Positions 10,972-62,913 of a stretch of DNA of 64,000 bases are shown here, in pieces. The stretch lies in NCBI RefSeq assembly GCF_025642115.1, contig NZ_CP106753.1, positions 2,255,501-2,319,500 on the forward strand, read 5' to 3'. Positions within the stretch are counted from its first letter, which is position 1. Every line of letters starts with the position of its first letter. This DNA is from Chitiniphilus purpureus (GTDB taxonomy: Bacteria; Pseudomonadota; Gammaproteobacteria; Burkholderiales; Chitinibacteraceae). Both the position numbers and the translations under genes were made by a program. The notes beneath the pieces were generated by a model. The model did not search any database. It saw only the letters and a list, made by a program, of their open reading frames with translations, and was not told the origin of the DNA.

Positions 10972-12192
10972 TCATTGCTCCTTGAGCGGCAGCGAGGCCG
11001 AGAGGCGTGTGCCGCGGCCGGGCTGGCTTTCCAGCGTCAGCGCACCGCCCAGCAGCGCACAGCGCTCCTGCATCGCAGACAGTCCCACGCAGCTGTGCGC
11101 ACGCGCCGCCTGCGGATCGAAGCCGATGCCATTGTCCATGATCACCAGGTGCACACTGCCCGGCACACTCGCCAGACTGACCGCCACCTGGCAGGGCCCG
11201 GCGTGCTTGCGCACATTGGAGAGCGCCTCCTGGGCGATGCGGAACAGCGCGGTCTCCAGCACCGGCGGCAGCCGCGGCTGGGTCAGCCTTTCCTCGAAGC
11301 TGACCGGCCAGCCTTCGCTGAACAGCTGCTCCGCTTCGCCACGCAGCGCATGTGCCAGCCCGAAGTCATCCAGCACGGTCGGACGCAGTCCGCTGATCAG
11401 CGAGCGCGCCTCCTGCACCGCACGCTGTGTCAGCCCCAGCGTGATCTCAAGCGCACCGCGCGCATCCTTGTCACGCGGTGCGTGGCGTTCGGCGAAGGCC
11501 TGCAGGCGCTGGTGTGCCGCCGCGGCCACCTGCGCCAGCCCATCGTGCAGGTCATGTGCCACGCGCCGCCGTTCGGCCTCCTGGGCATCGATCAGTTGCT
11601 CCACCAGCTGCGCCAACTGCCGCTCGCGTTCGGCCAGCCGCTCCAGCAGCCGGTCGCGTTGCACGGTGGCGGCGATGCTGTCGGCCAACAGCCGCAATGC
11701 GGCCATGTCTTCCGTTTCCAGCCGGTGACGCGGTGTGCGGCTGAACAGCACCAATTGCCCGAGCGGCACCGATTCGGCGGTGGTGAGCGGCAACTGCAGC
11801 AGCACCGGCAGCATCGCGCCCGGGCCGTCGCCCAGCATGCCTGCCAGCACATCCTGGCTTTGCAGCGGTTGCGCCGCGGGCAGCAACGGGGCCAGCACCG
11901 GCAGGCTGACCGCCAGGCTGGCATTGCGTGTGGCGCCCACCTGCCACTCGCGTGCGCCCGGCGTGCCCAGCAGGACCAGCCCCCCGTCCAGGGCACTGAA
12001 CGCCAGCGCGTGATCCAGTGCCCGGCCCAGCAATTGCGGCAGATCGCCGGGCAGCCCCAGCGCATGGCCGGCCTCGACCAGCAGCCGCAGCCGCGCCGCG
12101 CGCGCTTCCGCCGCCCGATACAGGTTGCGCCAGGCATGGGCGGAGGCGCCAGGGTCAAGCGGGTCGGAAGGCGGTGTGAAAGGGGTCGGCAT
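10972..12192 (-). CDS. NarX/UhpB-type sensor histidine kinase
   Basis: About 406 residues, soluble, with no membrane span visible. Residues about 25-170 look GAF-like (ALAFSALDGGLVLLGTPGAREWQVG). A coiled helix follows (LLERLAERERQLAQLVEQLIDAQEAERRRVAHDLHDG). It carries the HisKA_3 His213, then a HATPase with NVRKHAG (N box), DNGIGFDP and GLSAMQERCALLGG. HisKA_3 kinases pair with NarL-type regulators, and one follows directly. I chose the ATG; a TTG seven codons upstream is an alternative. Being cytoplasmic, it probably reads an internal signal or another protein. First gene of the four-gene cluster. Confidence 0.88.
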   Translation of the reverse strand: MPTPFTPPSDPLDPGASAHAWRNLYRAAEARAARLRLLVEAGHALGLPGDLPQLLGRALDHALAFSALDGGLVLLGTPGAREWQVGATRNASLAVSLPVLAPLLPAAQPLQSQDVLAGMLGDGPGAMLPVLLQLPLTTAESVPLGQLVLFSRTPRHRLETEDMAALRLLADSIAATVQRDRLLERLAERERQLAQLVEQLIDAQEAERRRVAHDLHDGLAQVAAAAHQRLQAFAERHAPRDKDARGALEITLGLTQRAVQEARSLISGLRPTVLDDFGLAHALRGEAEQLFSEGWPVSFEERLTQPRLPPVLETALFRIAQEALSNVRKHAGPCQVAVSLASVPGSVHLVIMDNGIGFDPQAARAHSCVGLSAMQERCALLGGALTLESQPGRGTRLSASLPLKEQ

Positions 12193-24245: not shown

Positions 24246-24949
24246 GTGTCGTTCTGCCTGCCGAGCGTCTGGCCCAGGCGCTCGGCCATACCTTCGCCGA
24301 CCCGCGCTGGCTGAGGCAGGCGCTGACGCATCGCAGCTTTTCCGGCACGCACAACGAGCGGCTGGAGTTCGTCGGGGACGGCATCCTCAACGCCGTGGTG
24401 GCCCGCGCCTTGTTTGTGGCGTTTCCACAGCTAAGCGAAGGCGAGCTTTCGCGGCTGCGTGCCAGCCTCGTCTGCCAGGATTCGCTGGCCGTGATCGCCG
24501 CTGGCCTCAGACTGGGCGACTATCTTTACCTGGGTGAAGGTGAACTCAAGAGCGGTGGCCATCGGCGTCCTTCGATCCTGGCGGACGCGCTTGAAGCGTT
24601 GTTCGGCGCAGTATGGTTCGATAGCGGTTTCGAGGCGGCGAGCCGGGTGATCGACGCCTTGTTCGCACCGAGGATTACGGCCATCGACCCTTCACGCGCG
24701 CTCAAAGATGCCAAGACCGCATTGCAGGAATGGTTGCAGGCGAGACGCGTATCGCTGCCGCAGTATCTGCTGATCAGGCAGGAGGGCGAATCGCCGCACC
24801 AGATCTTCGGGATCTGCTGCCGCATCGAACAACTGCAGATCGAAACCCAGGCGGAGGGGCCGAGCCGGCGCGCTGCCGAGCAGGCCGCTGCGGCTGCGGC
24901 GCTTGCGGAACTCAAAGAACGCTATCCGGGCAAGGCCAAGCGCTGCTAG
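24242..24949 (+). CDS. rnc: Ribonuclease III
   Basis: A 235-residue double-strand-specific endoribonuclease that processes rRNA precursors and structured mRNAs. RNase III signature [12 protein letters not shown] (residues 38-49) and the second acidic site [10 protein letters not shown], then a C-terminal dsRNA-binding domain ([27 protein letters not shown] through [25 protein letters not shown] ending). It starts at GTG overlapping the DUF4845 stop (GTGA). The era gene follows after 23 bp. Confidence 0.96.
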
Positions 24950-58646: not shown

Positions 58647-59882
58647 ATGATCGTAGAAATCAAGGTGCCGCAACTGCCCGAATCGGTATCGGAAGCGACG
58701 CTGCTGCAGTGGAAGAAGAAGGAAGGCGAAGCGGTCGCGCGCGACGAGAACCTGATCGATATCGAGACCGACAAGGTCGTGCTCGAAATCCCCGCGCCGC
58801 AGGCCGGGGTGCTGGTGTCCATCGTCAAGAAGGACGGTGACACCGTCACCAGCAACGAAGTGATCGCCACCATCGATACCGAGGCCAAGGCCGGTGCTGC
58901 CGCGCCGGCTCCGGCTGCGCCGGCCCCGTCGCAGGAGCAAAAGCGCGTCGAGGCAGCCGCCAAGGCCGCCGGCGTCGAGGCCTCGGCTGTCGGCTTCGGC
59001 ACCGCGGTGATGCCCGCCGCCAAGAAGCTTGCCGCCGACAACAATGTCGACCTTTCCAAGGTGGAAGGCTCGGGCCGCGGCGGCCGCGTGCTCAAGGAAG
59101 ACGTGCAGAACGCCGTCGCCGGCGGCAGCAAGCCCGCCGCACCGGCACCGGCCGCAGCGCCGGTGGCGGTGGCCCAGGGCGAACGCCCCGAACAGCGCGT
59201 GCCGATGAGCCGCCTGCGCCAGCGGGTTGCCGAGCGTCTGCTGCAGTCGCAGCAGACCAACGCCATCCTCACCACCTTCAATGAAGTGAACATGAAGCCG
59301 GTGATGGACCTGCGCAACAAGTACAAGGACCGCTTCGAGAAGGAACACGGCGTGAAGCTCGGCTTCATGGGTTTCTTCGTCAAGGCCGTGGTCGCCGCGC
59401 TGAAGAAGTACCCGATCGTCAACGCCTCGGTCGACGGCAACGACATTGTCTACCATGGCTACTTCGACATCGGCGTGGCGGTCGGCTCGCCGCGTGGCCT
59501 CGTGGTGCCGATCATCCGCAATGCGGATCAGCTCTCCCTTGCCGACATCGAGAAGACCATCGCCGACTTCGGCAAGCGCGCCCAGGAAGGCAAGCTCACG
59601 GTCGAGGAACTCACCGGCGGCACCTACACCATCTCCAACGGCGGCACCTTCGGTTCGATGATGTCCACCCCCATCATCAACCCGCCGCAATCGGCCATCC
59701 TCGGCATGCATGCCACCAAGGAGCGTGCCGTGGTCGAGAACGGCGAGATCGTGGTGCGTCCGATGATGTACCTGGCGCAGTCGTACGACCACCGCATCAT
59801 CGACGGCCGCGAAGCCGTGCTGTCGCTGGTCGCGATCAAGGAAGCGATCGAAGACCCGGCACGTTTGCTTTTGGATCTGTAA
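58647..59882 (+). CDS. sucB: Dihydrolipoyllysine succinyltransferase (2-oxoglutarate dehydrogenase E2)
   Basis: 411 residues. One lipoyl domain with [11 protein letters not shown] (lipoyl Lys), an Ala/Pro linker, a subunit-binding domain ([34 protein letters not shown]) and the catalytic domain ending [13 protein letters not shown] (HxxxDG). It forms the core of the complex. Confidence 0.98.
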
Positions 59883-59883
59883 T

Positions 59884-60004
59884 TGAGTGAGGGGTGAGGA
59901 GTGAGGAGGGAGGTGTCAAAGCCGCTCTTTGCTCCAGCCCCTGTGATCAATCCGGATGGTGTGAGTGCAGCAATACCCCTCACACCTAACCCCTCACACC
60001 TCAC
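59884..60004. repeat. Inverted heptamer repeat array, sucB-lpd spacer
   Basis: Directly after sucB come purine-rich units of 7 bp (GAGTGAG, GGGTGAG, GAGTGAG). About 60 bp later come pyrimidine-rich complementary units CCCCTCA, CACCTAA, CCCCTCA, CACCTCA, ending just before the lpd ribosome site. The arms can pair as a long imperfect stem. Confidence 0.85.
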
Positions 60005-60015
60005 AGGTTTTTACC

Positions 60016-61446
60016 ATGTCCCAACAATTCGATGTCGTTGTCATCGGCGCCGGGCCCGGCGGCTATGTGGCGGCGATCCGTGCCGCGCAGCTCGGGTTCA
60101 AGACCGCCTGCATCGACGAGTTCAAGAACAAGGAAGGCAAGCAGAGCCTGGGTGGCACCTGCCTCAATGTCGGCTGCATCCCGTCCAAGGCGCTGCTCGA
60201 ATCGTCCGAGAACTGGGAGCGTATCGAGCACAAGTTCGAAGCGCATGGCATCTCGGTGACCGGCGCCCAGTTCGATGTGAAGAAGATGCTGGAGCGCAAG
60301 GACGGCATCGTCGCCAAGCTCACGCAGGGTGTTGCCTATCTGTTGAAGAAGAACAAGGTGACCGCGCTGTTCGGCCACGGCAAGCTCTTGGCGCACAAGG
60401 ATGGCGCGTGGCAGATCGAGGTCGCCGGCGAGGCGACCGAGACCGTGACCGCCACCCACGTGATCATCGCCACCGGCTCGGTGCCGCGCCAACTGCCGGG
60501 CACCCCGACCGACAACAAGCTGATCCTCGACAACGAGGGTGCACTGGCGATTCCCGAGGTGCCGAAGAAGCTTGGCGTGATCGGCGCCGGCGTGATCGGC
60601 CTGGAAATGGGCTCGGTGTGGAAGCGGCTCGGTGCCGACGTCACCATCCTCGAAGCCGCGCCGGGTTTCCTGCTCGCCGCTGACGAGGCGGTAGCCAAGG
60701 AAGCGCAGAAGATCTTCACCAAGGACCTGGGCCTCAGGATCAGCACCTCGGTGAAGATCGGCGAAGTGAAGCCGGGCAAGAACAATGTCACGGTCAGCTA
60801 CGCCGACAGCGAGGGCAAGGAATACAGCGAGACCTTCGACAAGCTGATCGTCGCCATCGGCCGGGTGCCCAATACCTGGAACCTGGCCGCCGACGCGGTG
60901 CAGCTGCCGCTCGACGAGCGTGGCTTCGTCGTGGTCGATGATGCGTGCCGTACCAGCCTGCCCAACCTGTGGGCGATCGGTGACGTGGTGCGCGGCCCGA
61001 TGCTGGCGCACAAGGCCTCCGAGGAAGGTGTGGCGGTGGCCGAGCGTCTGGCCGGCCAGCATCCGCATATCGATTTCAACACCGTGCCGTGGGTGATCTA
61101 TACCAGTCCCGAGATGGCCTGGGTCGGCAAGACCGAGCAGCAGCTGAAGAAGGAAGGCGTCGACTACCGCAAGGGCCAGTTCCCGTTCAGCCCGAACGGC
61201 CGTGCACTGGGTCTTGGTGAGACTGCCGGCTTCGTCAAGATGCTGGCCGATGCCAAGACCGACCGTATCCTCGGCGTACACATCATCGGCCCCTATGCCT
61301 CGGAGCTGATCACCGAAGCCGTGGTGGCGATGGAGTTCAACGCCAGCTCGGAAGACATCGCCCGCATCGTCCACGCCCACCCGTCGCTCTCGGAAGCCTT
61401 GCATGAGGCGGCCCTTGGCGTCGACAAGCGCGGCCTGCACAGCTAA
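60016..61446 (+). CDS. lpd: Dihydrolipoyl dehydrogenase (E3)
   Basis: A 476-residue FAD disulfide reductase reoxidising lipoamide. FAD motif [21 protein letters not shown], redox disulfide [16 protein letters not shown] domain [21 protein letters not shown] and C-terminal [14 protein letters not shown]. The conserved ATG is used; an earlier in-frame ATG lies in the repeat array. Confidence 0.97.
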
Positions 61447-61452
61447 ATCCCC

Positions 61453-61585
61453 GAGAAGAGGGAAGAGGAAGGACACGACGGGAAGAGAGAAGAGGGAAGA
61501 GGGAAGGGTAACAACCCTTCTCCCTTCTCCCTTCTCCCTTCCCCGACAACTTCCCCTTCTCCCTTCCCTGTTACCACTTCTCTCA
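61453..61585. repeat. Inverted heptamer repeat array, lpd-sucC spacer
   Basis: Polypurine units of the AGAGGGA type (61453-61509) face CCCTTCT units (three perfect copies from 61515). The tip loop is AACAA. A second pyrimidine block (TTCCCCTTCTCCCTTCCC) follows before the sucC ribosome site. Different unit from the neighbouring arrays, same period and layout. Confidence 0.85.
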
Positions 61586-61597
61586 TAGGGAACGAAG

Positions 61598-62767
61598 ATG
61601 AACTTGCATGAATACCAAGCCAAGGAACTGCTGGCCAAATACGGCCTGCCGGTCCAGAAGGGCATCCTGGCCACCTCGGCCGAAGAAGCGGCCGCGGCCT
61701 ACGATCAACTCGGCGGCAAGTTCGCCGTCGTCAAGGCCCAGGTGCATGCCGGCGGCCGCGGCAAGGCCGGTGGTGTCAAGGTGGTGAAGAGCCGCGAAGA
61801 AGCCGCTGCCGAAGCCCAGCGCCTGATCGGCACCAATCTGGTGACCTACCAGACCGACGCGGCCGGCCAGCCGGTGAACTCGGTGCTGGTGTGTGAAGAC
61901 ATGTACCCGGTGCAGCGCGAGCTTTACCTGGGCGCCGTGGTCGATCGCGGCTCGCAGCGCGTGGTGTTCATGGTGTCGACCGAAGGTGGCGTCGAGATCG
62001 AGAAGGTCGCCGAGGAAACCCCGGAAAAGATCATCAAGATCGAAGTCGATCCGCTGGTCGGCATGCAGCCGTTCCAGAGTCGCGACGCTGCGTTTGCGCT
62101 GGGCCTTGCCGGTGACCAGGTCGCCGCGTTTTCCAAGCTGATGCTGGGTGCCTACAAGGCCTTCGTCGAGAATGACTTCGCGCTGTTCGAAGTGAACCCG
62201 CTGGCACTGCGTGAAAACGGCCAGCTCGCCTGCGTCGACGGCAAGATCAACCTCGACTCCAACGCCCTCTATCGCCACCCGGCCCTCTTGGCCCAGCGCG
62301 ACAAGAGCCAGGAGAACGAGCGCGAGGTGAAGGCCTCCGAGTTCGATCTGAACTACGTGGCACTGGAAGGCAACATCGGCTGCATGGTGAACGGCGCCGG
62401 CCTCGCGATGGCCACCATGGACATCATCAAGCTCAAGGGCGGCCAGCCGGCCAACTTCCTGGACGTGGGCGGCGGCGCCACCAAGGAGCGCGTGATCGAA
62501 GCCTTCAAGCTGATCCTGGCCGATACCTCGGTCAAGGGCGTGCTGATCAACATCTTCGGCGGCATCGTCCGTTGCGACATGATCGCCGAGGCCATCATCG
62601 CCGCAGTGAAGGAAGTGAACGTGACCGTGCCGGTGGTGGTGCGTCTGGAGGGCAACAACGCTGAACTTGGCGCCAAGATCCTCGACGAATCCGGCCTCAA
62701 GCTGACCTCGGCCCAGGGCCTGAACGATGCGGCCGAGAAGATCGTTGCTGCCGTTGCCGCCCTGTAG
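61598..62767 (+). CDS. sucC: Succinyl-CoA synthetase beta subunit
   Basis: A 389-residue ATP-grasp subunit. Starts [38 protein letters not shown] (nucleotide loop), [22 protein letters not shown] and [11 protein letters not shown]. With SucD it makes ATP/GTP from succinyl-CoA. Confidence 0.98.
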
Positions 62768-62770
62768 ATC

Positions 62771-62901
62771 TGTGAGGAGTGAGGCGTTAGGAGTGAGGTG
62801 CAACCCCGCTGCTAATTCCTTTCCCGGCACTATTTGAGATGAACAGGTCGTGATGGTGATGTGTGAGGTTTTACCCCTCACCCCTCACCCCTCACACCTC
62901 A
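62771..62901. repeat. Inverted heptamer repeat array, sucC-sucD spacer
   Basis: Right after sucC come units TGTGAGG, AGTGAGG, CGTTAGG, AGTGAGG. Before sucD come CCCCTCA (three tandem copies) and CACCTCA, ending two bases before the AAGGA ribosome site. Same unit as in the sucB-lpd array. Confidence 0.85.
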
Positions 62902-62913
62902 CAAGGAAAAATC

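Follow-up and report, generated by a model that had tools for sequence, protein, structure and literature searches.

Paired heptamer arrays in three suc spacers of Chitiniphilus purpureus and their likeness to the arms of intervening-sequence elements

Intervening sequences (IVSs) of 23S rRNA have been known since about 1990, and neither their origin nor the role of their protein has a settled explanation (PMC4990558). In Leptospira and Coxiella the IVS has complementary ends that form a stem, with an open reading frame (ORF) of the S23p/IVP family in the loop; rRNA IVSs take the place of a tetraloop, and in Coxiella tandem GACAGAT heptamers precede the ORF (PMC4990558). Here we describe paired arrays of 7-bp units in three successive spacers, sucB-lpd, lpd-sucC and sucC-sucD, within a 64,000-nucleotide stretch of Chitiniphilus purpureus (the window, positions 2255501-2319500 of one 4186520-base contig). 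Elements of this kind share with IVSs the complementary stem-forming ends and, where an ORF is present in the loop, its family. Unlike IVSs, they are located in protein-operon spacers and many copies contain no ORF; heptamer arms are general among them, with a unit that depends on the lineage. The three hairpins of the window sit in operon spacers and not in a 23S rRNA hairpin loop, and all three are devoid of an IVP/S23p ORF. With a probability of about 0.68, we consider them IVP-less members of a hairpin family that is related to 23S rRNA IVSs and tolerated between the genes of operons. The reading draws on observed arrays, their inverted order, their association with IVP, matching dialects, purifying selection on IVP and stable predicted folds.

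Heptamers have been described in other bacteria as well. In Xanthomonas, a 2015 study found GGGAATC heptamers as convergent pairs, 70 in one genome and 75 in another, near stops on the coding strand and near starts on the non-coding strand; it treated them as G-quadruplex repeats that are generally apart from mobile elements, and its accessible main text does not contain "intervening", "S23" or "four helix" (PMC4692102). The TAACTGA heptamers of Beggiatoaceae are likewise intergenic and within operons, and have been linked, as a speculation, to a mobile element or a repeat-binding protein; they differ from the arrays described here in being almost all direct, and the same three terms do not occur in the accessible text (PMC4679880). 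In Geobacter metallireducens, four or five tandem heptamers occur at dozens of sites; unlike the present elements, these are also found inside genes, and the available part of the report makes no tie to IVP (PMC2700814). On the protein side, structures of the IVP relatives 2gsc and 2rld were solved, 2gsc being Xcc0516, called five four-helix bundles in a reference title. Members of the family have been reported from cas loci, where they account for 18 genes (PMC3936711), and from insertions in the rRNA of candidate phyla (PMC11270868); Avd, the accessory protein of diversity-generating retroelements, is reported as homologous to PF05635 (PMC10053308). In print, mainly the freely readable literature, we found no link between IVP and heptamer arms beyond the Coxiella note. 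The paired heptamer hairpin arms between energy-metabolism genes described here are of the same type as the arms flanking the IVP gene across phyla.

Heptamer arms in the suc spacers and across the genome

In each of the three spacers, G-rich heptamers start a few bases past the stop and complementary heptamers lie ahead of the next start (Table 1). Direct reading and Tandem Repeats Finder thus confirm the paired arrays described in the original prediction. The sucB-lpd and sucC-sucD spacers use the dialect GTGAGGN, and lpd-sucC uses GGGAAGA/GAAGAGG-like units in two nested hairpins (Tandem Repeats Finder rows 61455-61506 and 61515-61566), of which only one is found in genome G013, whose Lpd is 97% identical (genomes are labelled G### and loci L###).

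Table 1. Features of the three suc spacers in window coordinates
Feature	Position	Strand	Context	Basis
sucB-lpd, G-rich left arm (GTGAGGN)	59885-59917	+	2 bases past sucB stop (59880-59882)	Tandem Repeats Finder (59885-59913), sequence, fold
sucB-lpd, C-rich right arm (NCCTCAC units)	59975-60005	-	10 bases 5' of lpd ATG (60016)	Tandem Repeats Finder (two rows, periods 14 and 7), sequence
lpd, host gene between two hairpins	60016-61446	+	served to locate the same spacers in relatives	
lpd-sucC, outer left arm (GAAGAGG/GGGAAGA units)	61453-61474	+	past lpd stop (61444-61446)	sequence; counterpart in G013 (L092)
CGAC, possible 4-bp direct repeat	61476-61479	+	around inner lpd-sucC hairpin, second copy 61544-61547	single case, read from sequence
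lpd-sucC, inner left arm (GGGAAGA units)	61480-61509	+	nested hairpin	Tandem Repeats Finder, fold
lpd-sucC, inner right arm (CCCTTCT units)	61513-61543	-	nested hairpin	Tandem Repeats Finder, fold
lpd-sucC, outer right arm (CTTCCCCTTCTCCCTTCCCT)	61550-61569	-	5' of sucC start (61598)	sequence, Tandem Repeats Finder
sucC-sucD, G-rich left arm (GTGAGGN)	62772-62800	+	past sucC stop (62765-62767)	Tandem Repeats Finder (62772-62798), sequence
sucC-sucD, C-rich right arm (ACCCCTC units)	62873-62903	-	5' of sucD ATG (62914)	Tandem Repeats Finder (62873-62902), sequence

Elsewhere in the window only one, weak, period-7 row remains at the Tandem Repeats Finder threshold (11038-11065, 72% matches), which agrees with the claim that the other gaps are without arrays, sdh and gltA themselves not having been located. 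The pattern GTGAGGNGTGAGG with at most 2 mismatches has 16 matches in the window against 7.2 expected, a number reached by none of 100 shuffles. The window and 20 evenly spaced stretches of 20 kb, 464 kb in all, contain five strong period-7 arrays, four of them in the three suc spacers; Markov-resampled sequence yielded none, and periods 12 and 15, multiples of the codon, gave 5 and 4.

The predicted RNA folds of sucB-lpd, lpd-sucC and sucC-sucD have energies of -52.1, -67.1 and -54.5 kcal/mol (z = -2.8, -3.6 and -3.7), and 1, 0 and 1 of 200 shuffles, respectively, were as stable; the predicted lpd-sucC stem consists of runs of six pairs and one mismatch. GC-rich stems of this kind could be bidirectional intrinsic terminators, and the sucB-lpd stem is soon followed by a run of five T. 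We regard this as extremely improbable, because by eye no T-run directly follows the stems of lpd-sucC and sucC-sucD, and because genes downstream of the hairpins belong to the same operon and need transcription. Membership in a known RNA family was ruled out, since Rfam gave no match at gathering score in the window or in six loci. The long mRNA stems that had been proposed are supported by these folds and by the orientation of the arms (below). Processing of the suc stems by RNase III is plausible, because RNase III excises 23S rRNA IVSs (PMC4990558, as far as accessible). A candidate rnc gene is present in the window as had been claimed; its NERLEF motif, the sole basis of the assignment, places it near 24352 (+ strand).

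Genome-wide, GTGAGGNGTGAGG has 25 forward and 25 reverse matches and the reversed control none. The GTGAGGN matches group into 18 loci, two of them inside the window, and 13 of the 18 are inverted pairs with the G-rich arm first, while none has the C-rich arm first (relaxed partner search with up to 5 mismatches in 18 specified bases, a pattern with 19 matches in 400 kb of evenly spaced stretches). A further 12 matches belong to GGGAAGNGGGAAG. From translations read by eye, we take the genes flanking these arrays to include sucB/lpd, sucC/sucD, dnaK/dnaJ and infB/rbfA, and also aceE/aceF, iscS/iscU, cysD/cysN and purM/purN. A design peculiar to the suc operon is therefore ruled out, and the supposed gap-specific placement in one operon proved wrong, as arrays are dispersed through the genome and the family. 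As in heptameric simple sequence repeats, the arrays consist of tandem 7-bp units and are mainly intergenic. At two loci, L061 (near C1:1925373) and L062 (near C1:2507642), a long GTGAGG array, of about 7 and about 10 units respectively, is one-sided and has no partner arm; the length of these arrays could vary by slippage.

IVP genes between heptamer arms

In the dnaK-dnaJ spacer of the same genome, GTGAGGN arms about 370 bp apart enclose an ORF of 117 amino acids that matches PF05635 (23S_rRNA_IVP; 107.4 bits, cut-off 33.8) and TIGR02436 (108.4 bits, cut-off 24). It is the sole PF05635 gene found in the genome, and its frame is open from a GTG inside the array. Among 61 genomes of the species' own, family and order sample, 14 have an IVP match, 13 of them above the cut-off. 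Over 88 codons, the ratio of nonsynonymous to synonymous divergence (dN/dS) of IVP is about 0.03-0.05 against G004, G030 and G035 and about 0.14 against G027 (the frameshifted IVP of G001 and the dnaK of G004, which was in a wrong frame, were left out); these ratios are rough because most dS values exceed 1. The low values indicate that IVP is under purifying selection in this family, unlike in Coxiella, where S23p seems not to be made according to the accessible text (PMC4990558).

Of 23 family genomes, four have IVP between dnaK and dnaJ, and 12 of the 19 others have a parsed spacer of 68-82 nt with a short hairpin, often GGCAC...GTGCC. No remnant of such a spacer hairpin was seen beside the IVP elements at these 23 loci. 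The element seems to replace the native spacer, much like the rRNA IVS replaces a tetraloop (PMC4990558, as far as accessible), and therefore no junction or target duplication can be read; a precise empty site was sought, and none of the 23 loci provides a clean one. In G003, dnaK and dnaJ are separated by some 1.1 kb of inserted DNA (L261), in which one ORF by eye resembles a fatty-acid desaturase.

For a broader view, 158 IVP loci were gathered: 22 from the 61 genomes, 56 of 81 from an even phylum draw of 299 genomes, and the best 80 of at least 582 species-wide, the latter from Proteobacteria, Bacteroidota, Planctomycetes, Acidobacteria, Clostridia, Nitrospirae, Chloroflexi, candidate phyla and one archaeal metagenome-assembled genome (MAG). 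The 25 omitted rows of the draw were mainly fragments, weak matches, a contig-edge copy, a further 23S IVS copy and the own gene already counted. We used 154 loci, having dropped L082 (weak match, no arms seen) and L161, L174 and L176 (ORF not located by motif). L242, with a run of N, is inside the 78 two-armed loci, is excluded from the 152 loci scored for arms and from the co-orientation count, and its N-holding up-flank is excluded from the gap comparison. Some loci are non-independent: one genome contributes six copies (L075, L084, L086 and L088-L090), a single gene is represented by two pieces (L081 and L085), and L138 and L139 are near-identical.

Heptamers flank nearly all of the 22 own, family and order loci except the weak L082, with a unit that varies between lineages. 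The mean tandem score at lag 7 is 14.8 in 154 up-flanks and 15.5 in 153 down-flanks; lags other than multiples of 7 give 3.3-5.3, far controls give 3.3-4.6 at every lag, and the peaks at lags 7, 14, 21 and 28 are sharp. One of these four lags was best, at a score of at least 10, in 93/154 up-flanks and 100/153 down-flanks compared with 4/148 and 4/140 controls 700-900 bp off; a best lag of 8 occurred in a minority (9/154 up, 5/153 down). Arrays with a score of at least 9 are present in 100/153 up-flanks and 105/153 down-flanks versus 6/69 other inter-ORF gaps of the same loci, and 127 of 152 loci have at least one heptamer arm. The mode of arm length is 30 nt, with four whole units in 97 of 206 arms, and there are 65 distinct up-arm units.

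Among the 78 two-armed loci (77 without L242), the two units match in 6-7 of 7 positions in inverted orientation at 57 loci and in direct orientation at 3 loci, against a between-locus agreement of 6.5%; direct arrays occur at some Flavobacterium-type loci (L193, L212, L214). Arm complementarity in these 57 loci is 88%, nine being perfect, and in 21 of the 33 with at least 3 mismatches, at least 60% of the mismatches fall in one heptamer phase. According to crude ORF calls for 77 two-armed loci, both neighbours run along IVP in 39 and both are opposed in 2 (p = 8e-10), the others being mixed (17), at an edge (18) or inside an ORF call (1). Between the upstream stop and the left arm the most frequent distance is -4 (8/50), which means that the stop codon forms part of the array. 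Stop codons are in excess in up-arm units on the sense strand (43/65 vs 29.0 shuffled, maximum 40), as well as antisense (20 vs 11.6) and on the non-sense strand of down-arm units (39/70 vs 19), and were for this reason set aside as a feature of sense-strand units. Of the loci inspected by eye, none but the G034 loci and L169 (G277) looked like 23S rRNA; G034 has six 23S rRNA-type IVS copies with the same IVP ORF (L075, L084, L086, L088, L089, L090).

In a Solimonas sp. MAG (G360), we examined 20 loci, one of which (L294) is the IVP locus, and many have AAAGAC outside the arms and CGTnnAAG-like ends inside them. Heptamer microsatellites produced by replication slippage, with pairs arising by template switching, would agree with the reported over-representation of heptamers, for which slippage was proposed (PMC4692102, PMC4679880, both in their accessible parts), and with long one-sided arrays such as that of L062. 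Polymerase slippage leaves unexplained the IVP association, the 30-nt arm peak, the G-rich-first order (13/18 vs 0/18) and the C,G,C seventh-base pattern common to the left arm of the IVP (L196) and 6 of 20 Solimonas left arms, and we hold it to be very improbable.

Short dispersed inverted repeats in spacers are familiar as repetitive extragenic palindromic sequences and bacterial interspersed mosaic elements (REP/BIME) and as miniature inverted-repeat transposable elements (MITEs). The heptamer hairpins are alike in being dispersed spacer inverted repeats, but have heptamer arms rather than a fixed palindrome. They could still be MITE-like DNA transposon ends moved by a transposase encoded elsewhere, as there are terminal inverted repeats of fixed polarity, many Solimonas hairpins have similar flanks outside and inside the arms, and the inner lpd-sucC hairpin may be bordered by a 4-bp CGAC duplication. 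That duplication is a single candidate, 65 different units are unlike the binding sites of one transposase, and no tie to RAYT and no transposase beside the arms was noticed, though no transposase search was made; on balance, an origin of this kind seems unlikely.

Dialects shared by IVP arms and dispersed units

The heptamer of the IVP arm is usually the heptamer scattered through that genome. All seven genomes with a GGGAAT-armed IVP have 50-380 matches to GGGAATNGGGAAT, compared with 0-6 in 16 others, and GGGATTC-armed genomes have 137 (L203) and 10 (L230). The GGGAAT-rich genomes include four Xanthomonas species, and four Xanthomonas IVP loci have GGGAATC-type arms. Similarly, GTGAGGNGTGAGG has 9-334 matches in 6/6 family genomes with a GTGAGG-armed IVP, and GGGAAGNGGGAAG has 149 in G002, the sole genome with GGGAAGG arms, against at most 26 in the other 36. 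In genomes with the corresponding arms, GGCAGTNGGCAGT has 7 (G080), 23 (G111), 44 (G115), 27 (G131), 65 (G229), 18 (G331) and 0 (G311) matches, and among 40 other genomes only G252 (29) exceeds 6.

Related genomes can differ in dialect together with their IVP. In genus g11, G032 with GGGAGTN arms has 41 GGGAGT and 1 GTGAGG match, and G035 with GTGAGG arms has 1 and 101. G002 belongs to the genus of the window; its dnaK-dnaJ IVP is about 54-55% identical to that of C. purpureus and has GGGAAGG arms, and its 149 GGGAAG matches compare with 26 and 12 in its sisters, next to 160 GTGAGG matches. IVP similarity predicts the dialect clearly above 70% identity and weakly below 60% (r = 0.16, 0/500 permutations as high). 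At least 8 GTGAGG matches are found in 9 of 14 IVP-bearing versus 8 of 47 IVP-less genomes (Fisher p = 0.0013); the tie between IVP and arrays across genomes is real but far from strict.

Several observations weigh against the kinship of the suc hairpins with IVP elements. No arm reaches a score of 9 in 25 of 152 IVP loci, and the armless ones include the six copies of one true 23S rRNA IVS, with weak NNNTCAG-like periodicity only. The 8 of 47 IVP-less genomes that are rich in GTGAGG (G022 with 278, G007 with 114, G049 with 55, G015 with 54, G003 and G014 with 10, and G019 and G056 with 8) show that arrays need no resident IVP. GGGAGT occurs without a GGGAGT-armed IVP in G031 (20), G008 (16), G034 (13), G028 (12), G017 (11) and G025 (7), and G033 has such an IVP but one match. 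For GGGAGT and GGGAAG the reversed-pattern control is unclean, since reversal gives patterns that are similar to further heptamer dialects. A Luteimonas with a GGTGATT IVP arm (L207) still has 112 GGGAAT matches, and the GGGAAT-rich genomes are not independent, being close kin (xanthomonads, Rhodanobacter-like genera, Solimonas). The apparent lack of S23p production in Coxiella (PMC4990558) also counts against it. Finally, at Solimonas L292, L305 and L308 a pair of arms encloses 120-262 bp of host coding sequence, in frame, within open frames that by eye resemble a dehydrogenase gene, murB and aceF; arms thus seem able to arise on either side of host DNA, an arrangement that insertion of a simple hairpin leaves unexplained.

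Proposed element and the suc spacers in relatives

Under the preferred reading, an element would consist of two inverted arms, mostly of about four heptamers (some 30 nt) each, so that transcripts through it would fold into a long stem whose loop holds an IVP gene or a short spacer. Inside rRNA such an element would be the known IVS, excised by RNase III. The suc elements would span from the stop of one gene to just before the next start, and would be tolerated there because cutting of the RNA, probably by RNase III, should harm nothing; the suc mRNA would be split into parts that decay separately, and the ratios of the enzymes may be affected, as the original prediction proposed for relative expression. 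The gene-bearing copy of this genome lies in the dnaK-dnaJ spacer and uses the GTGAGGN dialect of the two outer suc spacers; the IVP-less hairpins would descend from IVP elements, and the family would be mobile.

To hypothesize further, and at somewhat under even odds, heptamer-armed hairpins may be the traces of a single class of RNA-hairpin elements, mobile or domesticated, that extends across the bacteria and has gone unrecognised, with the rRNA IVS as a special case and IVP recognising or propagating its own dialect. Replacement of IVP would then rewrite the repeat dialect of a genome (G002 vs G000 and G001; G032 vs G035). Such a class, if real, would account for the long-noted heptamer excess in bacterial genomes. 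It would tie together two unexplained features of these genomes, IVS/IVP and the heptamer excess, the latter ascribed to slippage in the accessible parts of two papers (PMC4692102, PMC4679880), in one testable frame where IVP is linked to heptamer stems, operon spacers are a main home and the dialect switches with the protein. If RNase III cuts heptamer stems, many operons in such genomes would be processed at element-derived sites.

The suc spacers of relatives bear on a further alternative, in which these are host regulatory hairpins whose stems are kept by selection for mRNA processing or stability, IVP genes having merely settled inside some. The sucB-lpd loops of G000, G002 and G007 are common to them (0/200 shuffles as good), so this hairpin is old and kept; the comparison parsed 17 of 23 spacers, took G002 and G004 as typed loops and left out G016, G001, G010 and G011. 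Against the loop of hairpin-free G013, the alignment is marginal (4/200 shuffles as good). Placement in a conserved operon and the stable predicted folds would also suit a host function, as would the location of 90% of Xanthomonas repeats between the same ORFs in two species in the accessible part of the report (PMC4692102). However, the lpd-sucC dialect varies among relatives, by eye GGGAAG in G000 and G013, GTGAAA in G003 and GTGAGG-like in G001, G002, G004 and G022; in some 15 of the 23 family genomes examined, this spacer has no heptamer hairpin. The cross-phylum enrichment at IVP would also be unexpected for host hairpins, and some arms lie inside coding genes, so that we find this explanation rather unlikely, although it deserves serious consideration.

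In G017 and G008 (L112, L113), the sucB-lpd and lpd-sucC spacers are heptamer-free and contain inverted repeats of the GGCGGGTTAG...TAACCCGCC type. Lpd itself (window 60016-61443) is 97% identical to that of G013, which belongs to another genus (L092), and only 87-89% identical to those of the two genomes in the genus of C. purpureus, a pattern that suggests cross-genus recombination around lpd.

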